Of a DNA stretch of 64,000 nt, positions 2,872 through 61,240 are shown piece by piece. The stretch is from Pseudobdellovibrionaceae bacterium (GTDB lineage Bacteria > Bdellovibrionota > Bdellovibrionia > Bdellovibrionales > Bdellovibrionaceae), in NCBI GenBank assembly GCA_019637875.1, contig JAHBUW010000003.1, positions 124,001 to 188,000 on the forward strand, given 5' to 3'. Position 1 is the stretch's first letter, and each line of letters opens with the position of its first letter. The notes under the pieces were generated by a model. It saw only the letters and a program-made list of their open reading frames with translations. It had not been told where the DNA came from and did no database searches. The position numbers and the translations under genes are program-made.

Positions 2872-4422
2872 TTATTGACATTCGTTATGGATTCGCGCCG
2901 AACAGGAGTAGTTCAGATCGGCGATCACCGCCGCGCGCGTTTTGCGACCGCTCTCCAGCTCCTTAACCCACCACGCGATTTCACTCGTGGCTCCGGACCG
3001 GCGCAGATACTTTTTGTAAGCCTGACGGACAAAGTACTCGTCAGAGGCCAGAACGTGCGCCGTGAATTCCGCAACGCTGAGTCCGTTCTTCAAACGCTCC
3101 GCCCAGTAGCTCACGCCCTGCACGTCGCTTTGTAAGGAGTCATGATCACGATCAAGGTACTTCACGAAAACCGACACGACCGTCGCAATCGGATTCGCCA
3201 CGGTCGGGGTCGGGGTCACCACGGGCGGGGTCGTCCCTCCGGTATCCGTGCTGACGACGACCGGCGTGGTCACCACCGGCGTCGCACGGTCGCCACGCAG
3301 GATCTGGTTGATGACGTCTTCATCCGGGCAGCCAAAGTTCATATCCGGCGAATAGTTGTAAGGATTCGCGCCGTAACAGTGCTGTCCCGAAGTGTCGCCG
3401 GTCAACCACAGACGGAAGGGCATGGTGAAGCCGACACCACGGGCCCGCAGTTTCGCGGCCTGTTCCGTCAAGAAGGCGTGCCGTTGTGCCGTCGTCATCC
3501 GGGCGAACTTGTGCGTGTCGTCCTCGAGCACGCTGGCCCAATCGAGCTCCACGATCAGATTGTGCGCGCGATTCACGACCGTTTTATTGTGCAAGATCGC
3601 CTGACACGCGGGATAAGTCCCGCTCGCGCAGGGGGACGCATCGGGATCGAGCCCCACGTAGACCGGCCCGACGATGTAATCGAATAGACGAAGGTAATCT
3701 TGCGCTTGGTGACCGTTCGGCTGCTGCCCGATCAAGACCATACGCCCCTGCTCACGCGCGTGACGGCGAATTTCCGTCAGGACCGGCGCCAGCTGAAAGC
3801 GGGGATCTTGATGTCCCGTCTGTCCGAAAAGGATGTTTGTCACCCCGATGTCGATGGCGCGTTTCGTGACGAACAGAACGTAGCGACGGTACTCTTCCTG
3901 GTCGACGTTCGGCACGCAGGTCCCCGCGCCCCAGTGGCCTTCGGTCCCGGGGGAACACATCGCGCGGAAGTTGAAAGGACGGCCATTTTCATCGGCGTAA
4001 CTTTTCGTCAAAGAGACGGCCTCGGCGATGAAGATACCGTAGTCGTAACTCTTTCCCCGACGTTCGATGCTGTCGATCCGATTTTTGATATGCGCAAAGT
4101 TCGGAGGATTGGCCCAGGTTTCGATGGCCCGGGGAAGCGACGCGCACGCGGAACGCGTGAGCAGTTCGTCGTAACTTCCTTCCACGGGGTCGGTCAAAAG
4201 GCCGTCGAACATGCAGCCCTGATACTTCAGACGCGCCATCAGATCCGTCGGGTTCGCGGCCGCGGCGTTTTGTTCGCTGAGGCTGCGACGTTGGTAGCCG
4301 ACGTTGAAATCGACGAACGCGCCCTCACCACCCGTCAGATCGGTGAGCTTCATACCGGGGCCGCAGGCGACCAACAAGAGAGCCGCTCCGTAACCCGCCA
4401 GTTTCACGATTGCTTGTTTCAT
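2872..4422 (-). CDS. Lipoprotein with glycosidase-like region and C-terminal DUF4214-like domain
   Basis: The protein has 516 residues. The signal peptide ends at L-L-V-A-C (lipobox, Cys about residue 20), and GGGGGA precedes ATG 4422. The central part (about 40-370) has alternating strand and helix segments with W-x-N-P-P, F-G-Q-T-G-H-Q and V-E-L-D-W motifs, reminiscent of a TIM-barrel glycoside-hydrolase-like fold, though I cannot name a family. A Thr/Pro/Val-rich linker (about 375-420) leads to a C-terminal domain (F-V-K-Y-L-D-R-D, G-V-S-Y-W-A-E-R-L-K-N-G, S-D-E-Y-F) that matches DUF4214, a domain often found in exported and surface proteins. It is transcribed alone and ends at the terminator at 2811-2839. 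Confidence 0.75.
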   Translation of the reverse strand: MKQAIVKLAGYGAALLLVACGPGMKLTDLTGGEGAFVDFNVGYQRRSLSEQNAAAANPTDLMARLKYQGCMFDGLLTDPVEGSYDELLTRSACASLPRAIETWANPPNFAHIKNRIDSIERRGKSYDYGIFIAEAVSLTKSYADENGRPFNFRAMCSPGTEGHWGAGTCVPNVDQEEYRRYVLFVTKRAIDIGVTNILFGQTGHQDPRFQLAPVLTEIRRHAREQGRMVLIGQQPNGHQAQDYLRLFDYIVGPVYVGLDPDASPCASGTYPACQAILHNKTVVNRAHNLIVELDWASVLEDDTHKFARMTTAQRHAFLTEQAAKLRARGVGFTMPFRLWLTGDTSGQHCYGANPYNYSPDMNFGCPDEDVINQILRGDRATPVVTTPVVVSTDTGGTTPPVVTPTPTVANPIATVVSVFVKYLDRDHDSLQSDVQGVSYWAERLKNGLSVAEFTAHVLASDEYFVRQAYKKYLRRSGATSEIAWWVKELESGRKTRAAVIADLNYSCSARIHNECQ

Positions 4423-31810: not shown

Positions 31811-31859
31811 AAAAAAAGAGCGCCGAAGTTGTCTCGATACGAGACGGCTTCGGCGCTCG
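31811..31859 (-). terminator. Terminator for the small membrane protein gene at 31900
   Basis: A long stem (gagcgccgaag / cttcggcgctc, enclosing a second gtctcg / cgagac stem) is followed on the minus strand by seven T (the A run at 31811-31817). It lies about 40 bases downstream of the minus-strand gene ending at 31900. Confidence 0.85.
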
Positions 31860-34029: not shown

Positions 34030-34063
34030 GGTAGCAGCTACTTTCCGGAAGGTAGCTGCTACC
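34030..34063. repeat. Imperfectly spaced 12-bp inverted repeat
   Basis: ggtagcagctac at 34030-34041 is exactly complementary to gtagctgctacc at 34052-34063, with a ten-base spacer. It lies between the DUF2959 stop and the terminator. It has the form of a REP-like palindrome, but whether it recurs elsewhere cannot be seen from this window. Confidence 0.7.
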
Positions 34064-34068
34064 AAAAG

Positions 34069-34096
34069 AAAACCCGGGTCGCCCCGGGTTCTTTTT
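34069..34096. terminator. Bidirectional terminator between DUF2959 and topoisomerase VI A
   Basis: aacccggg / cccgggtt with loop tcgc is followed by ctttttag on plus; on minus it is followed by ttttctttt. It serves the convergent genes ending at 34028 and 34095, and its right edge overlaps the top6A stop codon. Confidence 0.85.
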
Positions 34097-53576: not shown

Positions 53577-53641
53577 ACTTCCAGCGCTGGAAGTAAAACG
53601 CCCATTTTTCGGGAGATTTACTTCCGGCGCCGGAAGTAAAT
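53577..53641. repeat. Two related perfect palindromes
   Basis: An 18-base palindrome lies at 53577-53594 (acttccagcgctggaagt) and a 26-base palindrome at 53616-53641, whose centre is cttccggcgccggaag. Both share acttcc…ggaagt arms, so they may belong to the same REP-like family. They lie just after the lipoprotein stop and before tRNA-Arg. Confidence 0.7.
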
Positions 53642-53748
53642 CACGCCTCCTCGCATATATCGCAAATGACCCGGCTCCCCTACGCTCCAGTCATCCGTGG
53701 CGAGCGTTGACGCAAGTCCGCCCATCTGCGAAAAAGGAAGTCACCGCG

Positions 53749-56845: not shown

Positions 56846-59308
56846 ATGAACCTTCGACATCTTCTATTGCCATCAGTGTTGGCTTTTTCCGCGTGCTCGA
56901 GCGCGCCGAAACCCGAAGTGCCGCCCGAACGTCAGCCCGCGGGCCTTTTCGACGGCCTGTTCAAATCGACGACGGAAGCGCAGCCCCTGACCGACGAAGA
57001 AATCGTTTCGGTTTCGAGCTCAGGCCCGCTGAAAACCAAGGGCATGAAAGTCCTCGTCGATAACGACGCGGCCTTCGATGAAAAGGTGAACGCGATCCGT
57101 TCGGCCACCGCCGGCGAGACGGTCCGCTTGTCTTATTATATCTACTCGGACGACCACTCATCGTCGGTGCTGTTCAAAGAGCTGATCGCGGCCGGTCAGC
57201 GCGGCGTGAAGGTGAAGATCTTCGCCGACCTGATCATGAACTACAAATATCTGGATCTGTTCGCCTACATGAACTCGGCGACCCGTGGGAACATCCAGCC
57301 CCGCTTCTTCCTGAGCCTATCGCCGAAACTCGTGCGCGACCTGAGCTTCCTGAGCCGTCCCTGCCCGCCGATCAAGGGTAAGGTCACGGCGTCGAGCTGC
57401 TCGGACGCCAAGTGGGCCGAACTCGCGCAAAATCCCGAGTCGGACGCTTACGGCAAACTGCTTCTGAGCGGTATGCTCGGACGTAGCGCGACCGCCGTGA
57501 AATTCGCCGTGACCGAAGGTCAGCAACTCGACGTGGCCGCGCTCGCCAAAGGCGGCGGCGCTTCGAAAGACGAAACTCAACAGCTGATCGACTTCTTGAA
57601 ACTCGTCGTGAAATCGAAACTGCAAGGCGACAGCACCGCGGGCATCAAGGTCGCGCTGGCGTACATGTTCTACGGGGAAAAACTCAATCCCGTCATGAAC
57701 CAGATCAACGGCATGATCCCGCTCGAACAAAGCGGCGACACCTCGTTCGAAGACTGGGAACACATCACGGACTTCACGCACCACAAATTCCTGTCCATCG
57801 GCGAACGTTTCCTGCAAATCGGCGGACGTAACGTCGAAAACAGCTACCACACGAAACCTTCACCCCTGACCCAGAAATACATCTTCAAAGACGTCGACGC
57901 GTCGGTGCAGATCACCTCGGGCGGCGCGGACGTCACCCGCGCTTTCGACGAGTTCTGGTCGTACCAGCCTCTGACGTTCTCGATGGAAGACGTCTTCAAA
58001 ATGGCGCCGAACGACTTCATCACGAACATCCCGGCCGCGACCAAAGCGGTGGCTCAATGCGCGAAGGGCACCTACGGCGCGAAACGCCGCGCCCAAACCG
58101 CGCGTTGCCTGGAGTCGAGCCTTTATAACCAACCCGAATACAAAAACCGTGAGCAGCGCATGCAAGCGGCGGCGAAATTGCTGGACGAGCGCGCGGCGGG
58201 CTATGCGACCTACAAAAAGGTCATCAACGAGTCATGGTCGAAAAACGGCGACTTCTCGGGCAAGCTCTCGCAAAACGACGTGAAGAAAGCCTTCGTCACT
58301 TACATCGAGAACCTGCACTTCGATCGCCGTAAACCCGCCGACAAACGCCCCCGCGTTTTCGGCGTGAAGCCCGCCGAAGAGTTGAACTCGGGAAAATATC
58401 TGCACTATCTGTGGCTGCGTGGAATGGAGAACGTCTGCGCCTCGACGGCCGAGTCGTTCAAGAAAAACCCGAACCAACCCCGCCAACGCGTGATCCTGCA
58501 CTCGGCGTACTTCCTGCCCCCGGGAATCATGATGAATACGCTGGCGAAGATGATCAACGGAACTTGGGATTGCCGTGGCGTGCGCCTGACGATCCTGACC
58601 AACTCGTTGGAAACGACGGATCTGAACGTCATCAACCTTCTGGGTCGCTACCAGATGACGGCGTTCTACAATCTGTACTCGCAGCGCCTGACTTTGTTCG
58701 GTAACGAACTCTACAAAGACGACCGCTCGCAAGACCCCCGTTTCAACAAAGACAGTCGTTCGAACGGCCGCGCCGCGGTCGTGGACTACTTCGAGTTGAA
58801 GTCGATGTCGGATGACGCCCACGTCTCGCTGCACGCGAAAGTCATGATCCTGGGCAACAACGACGCCATGGTCACCTCGGCGAACGGCGACATCCGCTCG
58901 TACTACATGGACACCAACAACGGTTTGTACCTGCGCAACGTTCCCGACTTCGTTCGTGAATACACCGCATGGCTGGATGGCATGATCAAAGACCGCGCGA
59001 AAACCAATTCGCGCGTGAAAGAGTTCACCGCCGGTGGCGTCACCGTCGACGAGACCCTGCGCCGCCTGCACGCCGAAGATCGCGCCATGATCGACGCGTT
59101 CATGAAGAAACGGGGCTGGGACAAGAAGGTCAAAGCCGCGCACATGAAGCAGCTGCACAAAGTGATCGAAGAGGTCACCGACATGATCTTCGATTCGACC
59201 CGCAAGATCATGCACGAAGGCCGCAACGAGGGCGACGACGTTCACGAGCGCCGCGCGAAGCAGTTGAAGCTGATGCATCGCTTCGACCGCCTGCTACAAG
59301 TGTTCTAA
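56846..59308 (+). CDS. Phospholipase D-like lipoprotein
   Basis: GCGAGGAG precedes ATG 56846; the protein has 820 residues. The signal peptide ends A-F-S-A-C-S-S. Two HKD motifs are present: H-H-K-F-L-S-I…G-G-R-N near residue 312 and H-A-K-V-M-I-L-G-N-N-D-A-M-V-T-S-A-N near residue 663, so the bilobal PLD catalytic site is complete. The unusual length comes from a helical insert (about 370-520) and a helical C-terminus. Relatives cleave phospholipids or transfer phosphatidyl groups (cardiolipin synthase). Anchored outside the inner membrane, it could act on its own or foreign membranes. Confidence 0.87.
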   Translation: MNLRHLLLPSVLAFSACSSAPKPEVPPERQPAGLFDGLFKSTTEAQPLTDEEIVSVSSSGPLKTKGMKVLVDNDAAFDEKVNAIRSATAGETVRLSYYIYSDDHSSSVLFKELIAAGQRGVKVKIFADLIMNYKYLDLFAYMNSATRGNIQPRFFLSLSPKLVRDLSFLSRPCPPIKGKVTASSCSDAKWAELAQNPESDAYGKLLLSGMLGRSATAVKFAVTEGQQLDVAALAKGGGASKDETQQLIDFLKLVVKSKLQGDSTAGIKVALAYMFYGEKLNPVMNQINGMIPLEQSGDTSFEDWEHITDFTHHKFLSIGERFLQIGGRNVENSYHTKPSPLTQKYIFKDVDASVQITSGGADVTRAFDEFWSYQPLTFSMEDVFKMAPNDFITNIPAATKAVAQCAKGTYGAKRRAQTARCLESSLYNQPEYKNREQRMQAAAKLLDERAAGYATYKKVINESWSKNGDFSGKLSQNDVKKAFVTYIENLHFDRRKPADKRPRVFGVKPAEELNSGKYLHYLWLRGMENVCASTAESFKKNPNQPRQRVILHSAYFLPPGIMMNTLAKMINGTWDCRGVRLTILTNSLETTDLNVINLLGRYQMTAFYNLYSQRLTLFGNELYKDDRSQDPRFNKDSRSNGRAAVVDYFELKSMSDDAHVSLHAKVMILGNNDAMVTSANGDIRSYYMDTNNGLYLRNVPDFVREYTAWLDGMIKDRAKTNSRVKEFTAGGVTVDETLRRLHAEDRAMIDAFMKKRGWDKKVKAAHMKQLHKVIEEVTDMIFDSTRKIMHEGRNEGDDVHERRAKQLKLMHRFDRLLQVF

Positions 59309-59368
59309 TCTGCACTTAAGTCTTGAAGCCTTCATGGGGCGTTGACCGCCCCGAGCACGAATTCAGAA

Positions 59369-59396
59369 CATGGGAGTCTCACCGGAGGCTCCCATG
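59369..59396 (+). promoter_or_regulatory. Hairpin that encloses the ribosome binding site and start codon
   Basis: catgggag (59369-59376) pairs with ctcccatg (59389-59396); inner bases 77-80 pair with 85-88 (one G-U), giving a stem of about 12 pairs with loop accg. The GGAGG and the ATG at 59394 both lie inside the descending arm. The stem is followed by tttcgtttt, so it could also serve as a terminator for the PLD transcript. Confidence 0.6.
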
Positions 59397-59732
59397 TTTC
59401 GTTTTCTCCCCGTACTTTTCGCGCTCTTGCTCGGCGGCTGTTCAACCGCTGAACTGATTCAACGAACCTATGAACCGCAAAAGTCCGGAGTCGTGAAATT
59501 CCAGGACGGTTTGATGGCCTTCATGGGCGGTGAAAAAGGCCGCACCATGGCCGAAGAGAAAATGCGCAACTTCTGCGCGCCGAAGCCGTTCCGGATCCTG
59601 CGCGAAACCGACAAAGAGATCGTCCAAACGAAAAGTCAGACCACGAACAACAAAGACGGCGGCAGCAGCACGGTGTCCACAACCGGCGCGTCGTCGGGCA
59701 GCATGACATACGCCTCGTTCGCGTGCCGCTAG
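59394..59732 (+). CDS. Small lipoprotein
   Basis: ATG 59394 gives 112 residues; the signal peptide ends L-L-L-G-G-C-S-T. The mature part is a small domain (E-L-I-Q-R-T-Y, M-R-N-F-C-A-P, F-R-I-L-R-E) with a Ser/Thr/Gly-rich insert near the end and final F-A-C-R, so its two cysteines may pair. The start sits inside a strong hairpin; an in-frame ATG at 59370 is a weaker alternative. No family recognised. Confidence 0.65.
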   Translation: MFRFLPVLFALLLGGCSTAELIQRTYEPQKSGVVKFQDGLMAFMGGEKGRTMAEEKMRNFCAPKPFRILRETDKEIVQTKSQTTNNKDGGSSTVSTTGASSGSMTYASFACR

Positions 59733-60736: not shown

Positions 60737-61240
60737 ATGAGAAAAGGATTTCTCGTTCCGGCCCTCGTCTGTCTTTCGTTATTCCTCCCGCTCCTCACCC
60801 AGGCTTACCCCTTGGTGCCGGATCCGCAACTGACCCCGGGCTTCCTTTGCGACGTCCATGATCCCGACTATGCGGAAGACCGCTACCGCGAAAAGATCCC
60901 TTACTGCCGCCGTAACGTGAGCTCCGCGACCAAAAAGGATATCTACCGCGTTTACGGCATCCCCAGCCGCTGCACCAAACGCTACACCATCGATCACTTC
61001 GTGCCCCTTTCCCTGGGTGGCGACAACTCGGTCCAAAACCTGTGGCCCGAACACCGCAACGTCAAAGCCACCCGCCAAAACCTCGAACAGAAACTCTACG
61101 TGCAGATCTCGAAAGGTCAGATCACCCAGGACGAGGCCGTCGACAGCATCTATCAGCACAAGCTCAATCCCCCGCGTCCGGTCTCGGGAAGCGACGAGTG
61201 TGATCGCTTGGACCCCCAAGCCAACTGGGACCTTCTGTAA
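60737..61240 (+). CDS. Exported HNH endonuclease
   Basis: ATG 60737 follows AGGAG. The protein has 167 residues with a Sec signal peptide (cleavage near T-Q-A/Y). The HNH core Y-T-I-D-H-F-V-P-L-S-L-G-G, N-S-V-Q-N-L-W-P-E-H-R-N is complete, with Cys pairs (C-D-V, C-R-R, C-T-K, C-D-R) that suit an oxidising compartment. It would act on DNA in the periplasm or outside the cell, for example on released foreign or prey DNA; the target is inferred. Confidence 0.85.
   Translation: MRKGFLVPALVCLSLFLPLLTQAYPLVPDPQLTPGFLCDVHDPDYAEDRYREKIPYCRRNVSSATKKDIYRVYGIPSRCTKRYTIDHFVPLSLGGDNSVQNLWPEHRNVKATRQNLEQKLYVQISKGQITQDEAVDSIYQHKLNPPRPVSGSDECDRLDPQANWDLL

Follow-up and report, generated by a model that had tools for sequence, protein, structure and literature searches.

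A terminator-like hairpin covers the translation start of a small lipoprotein gene

The hairpin found at the start of a small lipoprotein gene in the analysed window is real and non-random, and most likely serves both to terminate the PLD-like gene upstream and to lock read-through RNA against translation. On balance we consider it probable that the full arrangement consists of an intrinsic terminator for the PLD-like gene, with a 3' arm that holds the ribosome-binding site and start of the next gene, a lock on the translation of read-through RNA, and an RNA start inside the hairpin. Computation shows that the hairpin exists and is stable, that its anatomy is terminator-like and that shortened RNAs are less costly to open. 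The window, i.e. the whole stretch of 64,000 nt that was analysed (G000:C3:124001-188000), belongs to a genome of 3.98 Mb in 30 contigs.

Hairpin at the junction of two genes

The features of the locus, all on the plus strand, are as follows.

56846 to 59308, plus strand: upstream gene for a PLD-like protein of 820 aa with a lipoprotein-like N-terminus (ORF; Pfam PLDc_2, E 1.2e-13)
59336 to 59352, plus strand: weaker upstream hairpin, GGGGCG-TTGAC-CGCCCC, without a T tail (fold)
59366 to 59399, plus strand: hairpin of 15 pairs (12 strong ones at 59369-59396) with the loop ACCG at 59381-59384 (sequence and fold)
59370 to 59372, plus strand: in-frame alternative ATG in the 5' arm, adding 8 residues if used (sequence and ORF list)
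59384 to 59388, plus strand: Shine-Dalgarno sequence GGAGG, with 59385-59388 paired and 59384 in the loop (sequence and fold)
59394 to 59396, plus strand: ATG of the lipoprotein gene, 5 nt past GGAGG, all bases paired in the 3' arm (sequence and fold)
59394 to 59732, plus strand: small lipoprotein gene, 112 aa (MFRFLPVLFALLLGGC...), lipobox LLLGGC (ORF and homologues)
59397 to 59406, plus strand: T-rich tail TTTCGTTTTC, 7 T in 10, directly after the 12-pair stem (sequence)

The two genes lie on the same strand with 85 nt between them. For the 112-aa lipoprotein, no Pfam or NCBIfam family was found over the cut-off. Homologues were detected in 12 of 66 genomes of the family and 21 of 140 genomes of the order (both counts include its own genome), and these matches in other genomes show that the lipoprotein gene is real. 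Further downstream in the window, at 60737-61240, a secreted-looking protein of 167 aa gave a weak match to HNH_4 (E 5e-4), just under the cut-off.

The RNA of 59369-59396 (CAUGGGAGUCUCACCGGAGGCUCCCAUG) forms 12 pairs between the arms CAUGGGAGUCUC and GAGGCUCCCAUG, joined by the loop ACCG, with a predicted folding energy of -20.7 kcal/mol; compared with 200 shuffles, z is -6.5. The core contains neither mismatch nor bulge and a single G-U pair (59377-59388), and the stem can be extended by three pairs (A-U, A-U and G-U) to 59366-59399. From the stop codon of the PLD-like gene, the distance is 57 nt to the 15-pair stem and 60 nt to the 12-pair stem. The fold thus reproduces the hairpin with its four-base loop reported by the first-pass annotation, and the T-rich sequence reported past the stem is present from 59397, broken by CG. 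Of the pairing claimed there for GGAGG and the ATG, that of the ATG at 59394 stands in full, while GGAGG is paired in four of its five bases, the first G (59384) being in the loop. In the sequence of the locus, no Shine-Dalgarno sequence was seen for the alternative ATG at 59370, which is moreover located in the 5' arm; a start there was set aside as less likely.

For comparison with the rest of the genome, a sample of 464 kb was composed of the window and 20 stretches of 20 kb, in which a crude gene-calling procedure returned 374 ORFs with a minimum length of 120 aa, 156 of them with a usable start and a Shine-Dalgarno sequence. The most stable uninterrupted start-covering hairpin among these 156 starts is that of the window (-24.6 kcal/mol; runner-up, -14.4), and a start-covering hairpin as stable never arose in 10,000 first-order shuffles of the region from -60 to +30, in support of the earlier judgement that this is not typical intergenic noise. 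Within a 150-nt fold, opening of the start would take 16.6 kcal/mol, the fifth-highest cost among the 156 starts, against a mean of 8.5 that is high because the genome is GC-rich. Among hairpins of any kind in the same sample, the window hairpin is in the top ten for stability.

Other strong hairpins were seen elsewhere in the window. An uninterrupted hairpin of 19 pairs (-35.3 kcal/mol), without a T tail, is located at 31818-31858, and a tandem pair of strong hairpins, the second one terminator-like, at 34030-34096.

Terminator-like anatomy of the hairpin

Terminator-like hairpins were collected from both strands of the 464-kb sample by the d score of d'Aubenton Carafa. The window hairpin (d = 15.3) ranked 49th of 71 hairpins with d above 0. 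In a shuffle control of one shuffle and one strand, four hairpins had d above 0 and none reached 15.3. Within 150 nt past a called stop on the same strand were 36 of the 71 hairpins, compared with 6.9% of random positions, indicating that the score is enriched where terminators belong. The 60 nt between stop and hairpin at the window locus fall inside the spread of 0-94 nt observed for terminator-like hairpins. As expected of an intrinsic terminator, a stable GC-rich hairpin runs directly into a T-rich tract, and both are positioned past the stop codon of a gene on the same strand. By these tests the window hairpin has the anatomy of an ordinary terminator, and it is ordinary as a terminator apart from the overlap with a start codon: a terminator-like hairpin covering a start on the same strand was found at one of the 156 sampled starts, that of the window.

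Homologues of the PLD-like gene were surveyed at 24 of 30 loci (L009-L038), leaving out the short or weak matches L033-L038. A terminator-like hairpin was present within 120 nt past the stop in 11 of 23 homologues (window excluded), starting 20-69 nt after the stop codon. The survey rule required an uninterrupted stem and omits two candidates with interrupted stems recognized by eye (L012 and L013); among the loci left out, L035 has a terminator-like hairpin. No such hairpin was found after the stop of the closest PLD homologue (G012, 43% identity). In that genome the lipoprotein gene (C11:607,699) and the PLD gene (C11:827,864) are not neighbours. Taken together, the d score, the position past the stop and the hairpins after the PLD homologues support the first-pass proposal that the structure may end the PLD transcript.

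In a study of the tR2 terminator, ribosomes are described as repressing terminators close past a stop codon, with recovery as the distance increases, and terminators as able to function in a coding region within its first 100 bp (PMC4824070). Both points fit a terminator at this position.

Start-covering hairpins at homologous lipoprotein genes

The regions upstream of the lipoprotein gene were compared at 22 homologue places, the window included. Significant start-covering hairpins were detected at four places, the window, G012, G053 and G056, and 18 places were without one. The G012 hairpin has 11 pairs and that of G053 has 9 pairs, both with the Shine-Dalgarno sequence in the 3' arm, and the G056 hairpin has 14 pairs with the ATG in the 5' arm. 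Hairpins as stable arose in 30 (G012), 199 (G053) and 3 (G056) of 10,000 shuffles, and at 1 of 52, 0 of 52 and 0 of 40 sampled real starts of the respective genomes. The G056 hairpin is also terminator-like (d 13.2), and those of G012 (d -42) and G053 (d -61) are not.

Across the 21 places other than the window, enrichment of start hairpins was not significant (Fisher combination, p = 0.26); p was 0.005 for a subset, picked after seeing the data, of the four closest subfamily members with the window left out. The stems stand at different offsets and are not alignable, and the pattern is therefore a recurrence rather than demonstrated homology. No relative of 59309-59470 at the DNA level was found among the 65 other genomes of the family.

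These comparisons bear on the possibility that the hairpin is a plain terminator whose overlap with the start is incidental, translation being unregulated and the lipoprotein coming from an RNA that is leaderless or very short, or scarcely being produced. All of the terminator evidence (d score, position past the stop, PLD homologues) agrees with this explanation, as does the finding that most homologues have no start-covering hairpin. We regard it as unlikely, though worth keeping in mind, because such a hairpin was found at only 1 of 156 starts and because start hairpins also occur at three homologue places where the neighbour genes differ from those of the window locus.

Predicted effect of the hairpin on translation

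Opening of 59384-59396 is predicted to cost 16.4 kcal/mol at 37 C. For RNAs with the 5' end at 59374, 59376, 59378 and 59384, the predicted cost falls to 8.1, 5.8, 5.1 and 4.6 kcal/mol, respectively, indicating that RNA devoid of the 5' arm would free the start. In the predicted fold, the ribosome-binding site is paired in RNA from upstream promoters, and in the shortened RNA, if such 5' ends exist, it is accessible. With read-through RNA predicted to be locked at about 16 kcal/mol, the lipoprotein is probably made from RNA that begins inside the hairpin.

Alternatively, the hairpin could be a translational switch, opened on PLD read-through RNA by a protein, a helicase, a small RNA or a ribosome so that the lipoprotein is translated. 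The order of the two genes, 85 nt apart on the same strand, and the recurrence of start-covering hairpins at three homologue places are compatible with such a switch, which we nevertheless judge rather improbable: about 16 kcal/mol would be needed, PLD translation ends 57 nt short of the hairpin, and the hairpin itself would stop transcription. In addition, no antisequestor longer than chance was found in the upstream 166 nt, and a search of Rfam gave no family over threshold, the sub-threshold matches being located outside the hairpin. On these last two grounds a riboswitch with an antisequestor was rejected; as for the earlier suggestion that the structure waits for an unfolding factor, such a factor may be involved, even though neither an antisequestor beyond chance nor an Rfam match above threshold was found.

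The inverted repeat AACATGGGAG...CTCCCATGTT spans the start of the lipoprotein gene, and as a DNA palindrome it might be a repressor site controlling this gene. This is very improbable, since the palindrome occurs as a single copy in the genome and a T tail flanks just one of its sides, as in a terminator. Near-copies with up to 3 mismatches in the whole genome were no more frequent than those of a reversed-pattern control (6 and 14 per strand, respectively). A dispersed repeat or shared operator was rejected on account of the single copy.

Two further palindromes may be recorded here. One at 53615-53642 of the window (GATTTACTTCCGGCGCCGGAAGTAAATC) is perfect, with 12 pairs. In L052, palindromes at 3106-3154 and 3860-3890, less than 1 kb apart, have CTTCTTGAAACGCG in common, possibly representing a dispersed repeat.

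An RNA thermosensor controlling the lipoprotein, proposed earlier from the pairing of the Shine-Dalgarno sequence and ATG, is scarcely credible and was set aside on predicted stability: in the model the stem, with its uninterrupted 12-pair core and single G-U, opens only above 80-90 C, outside the physiological temperature range, and in a 172-nt fold the AUG bases have an unpaired probability not exceeding 0.0012 at 42 C and 0.09 at 80 C.

Promoter candidates inside the hairpin

The preferred reading, a terminator and lock bypassed by an internal RNA start, calls for a promoter of the lipoprotein gene itself. One candidate was recognized by sequence match.

59342 to 59371, plus strand: possible sigma-70-like promoter TTGACC-18-GAACAT, 8/12 match, with a putative RNA start near 59378 in the hairpin

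A match at least as good was obtained in 130 of 1000 shuffles. The consensus of sigma-54 promoters is TGGCAC-N5-TTGC. The best sigma-54 match obtained for the window gene (6/11) was no better than chance (shuffle p 0.32), and a sigma-54 promoter there was rejected as chance-like, though rpoN is present, as it is in all four genomes checked (the window genome, G012, G053 and G056). Since the matches at the window gene are chance-like, the promoter step is one that we infer.

Among the homologues, a sigma-54-like element with a score of 9/11 occurred at 7 of the 22 places (shuffle p 0.002 to 0.046). The scores for G012, G053 and G056 were 8, 9 and 9 of 11, respectively (p 0.07 for G012), and in all three the RNA start predicted from the element falls inside the hairpin. 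For RNA shortened to this start, the predicted opening cost in kcal/mol decreased from 11.6 to 7.7 in G012, from 8.1 to 4.2 in G053 and from 19.3 to 6.1 in G056, the 7.7 left in G012 being still substantial. A shared sigma-54-like promoter, TGGAATNNNNNTTGCT, was also seen, in several genomes, upstream of a sister lipoprotein subfamily (L061, L063, L064, L067, L068 and L069).

Discussion

Three inferred elements, namely termination itself, a lock operating in the cell and an internal promoter, would combine in the following way. The hairpin would act as intrinsic terminator for the PLD-like gene, its 3' arm being reused as ribosome-binding site and start codon of the gene that follows, and the majority of RNA polymerases leaving the PLD gene would halt in TTTCGTTTTC. 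RNA that escapes termination would carry the folded hairpin and would not be translated, and the lipoprotein gene would thereby be insulated at two levels. The lipoprotein would be made only from RNA with its 5' end within the hairpin, at about 59376 or later, transcribed from its own promoter; such RNA would lack the 5' arm and its start would be usable.

With Rho-independent terminators between genes of the same strand, the window hairpin shares the GC-rich stem, the 4-nt loop, the T-rich tail and the location 60 nt past a stop; it differs in having the ribosome-binding site and start codon of the following gene within its 3' arm and in that the tail is broken by CG. The transposase genes of IS10/IS200 are guarded by fold-back protection against outside transcription. 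Read-through RNA at the window locus would likewise fold across the start region, but no mobile element was seen at the locus and the palindrome is single-copy. RNA thermometers such as fourU and ROSE also hold the Shine-Dalgarno sequence inside a stem, but the window stem is far too stable and has neither a fourU nor a bulged stem.

A resemblance is also seen with phage T4, for which hairpins are described over the ribosome-binding site of soc, e, the endonucleases I-TevI, II and III, and segB; for I-TevI, the hairpin is formed only on upstream transcripts, and a late promoter starts RNA too far in to produce it (PMC2988022). The T4 late and homing endonuclease genes and the window gene have in common a stable hairpin over the Shine-Dalgarno sequence on read-through RNA. 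RNA begun inside the hairpin would be free in both, which holds for the window only if the internal start exists. The window differs from T4 in that the gene is a cellular lipoprotein gene, the hairpin is terminator-like and the internal promoter is putative.

More tentatively, and with a likelihood well below that for the window gene itself, gating of the T4 type may extend to the lipoprotein family within this bacterial family. RNA would then begin inside the start-covering hairpin, by means of sigma-54 in several relatives, the activated promoter of each gene would be the only source of translatable mRNA, and the hairpin would also terminate the upstream transcript in the window and G056.

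If the proposed arrangement is true, a single element of 34 nt would end one gene and keep the next from being translated by accident, a compact means of insulation in a cellular genome that is reminiscent of a phage strategy. It would also be a caution that where two genes meet closely, pairing of the Shine-Dalgarno sequence does not have to signify a riboswitch or thermometer.
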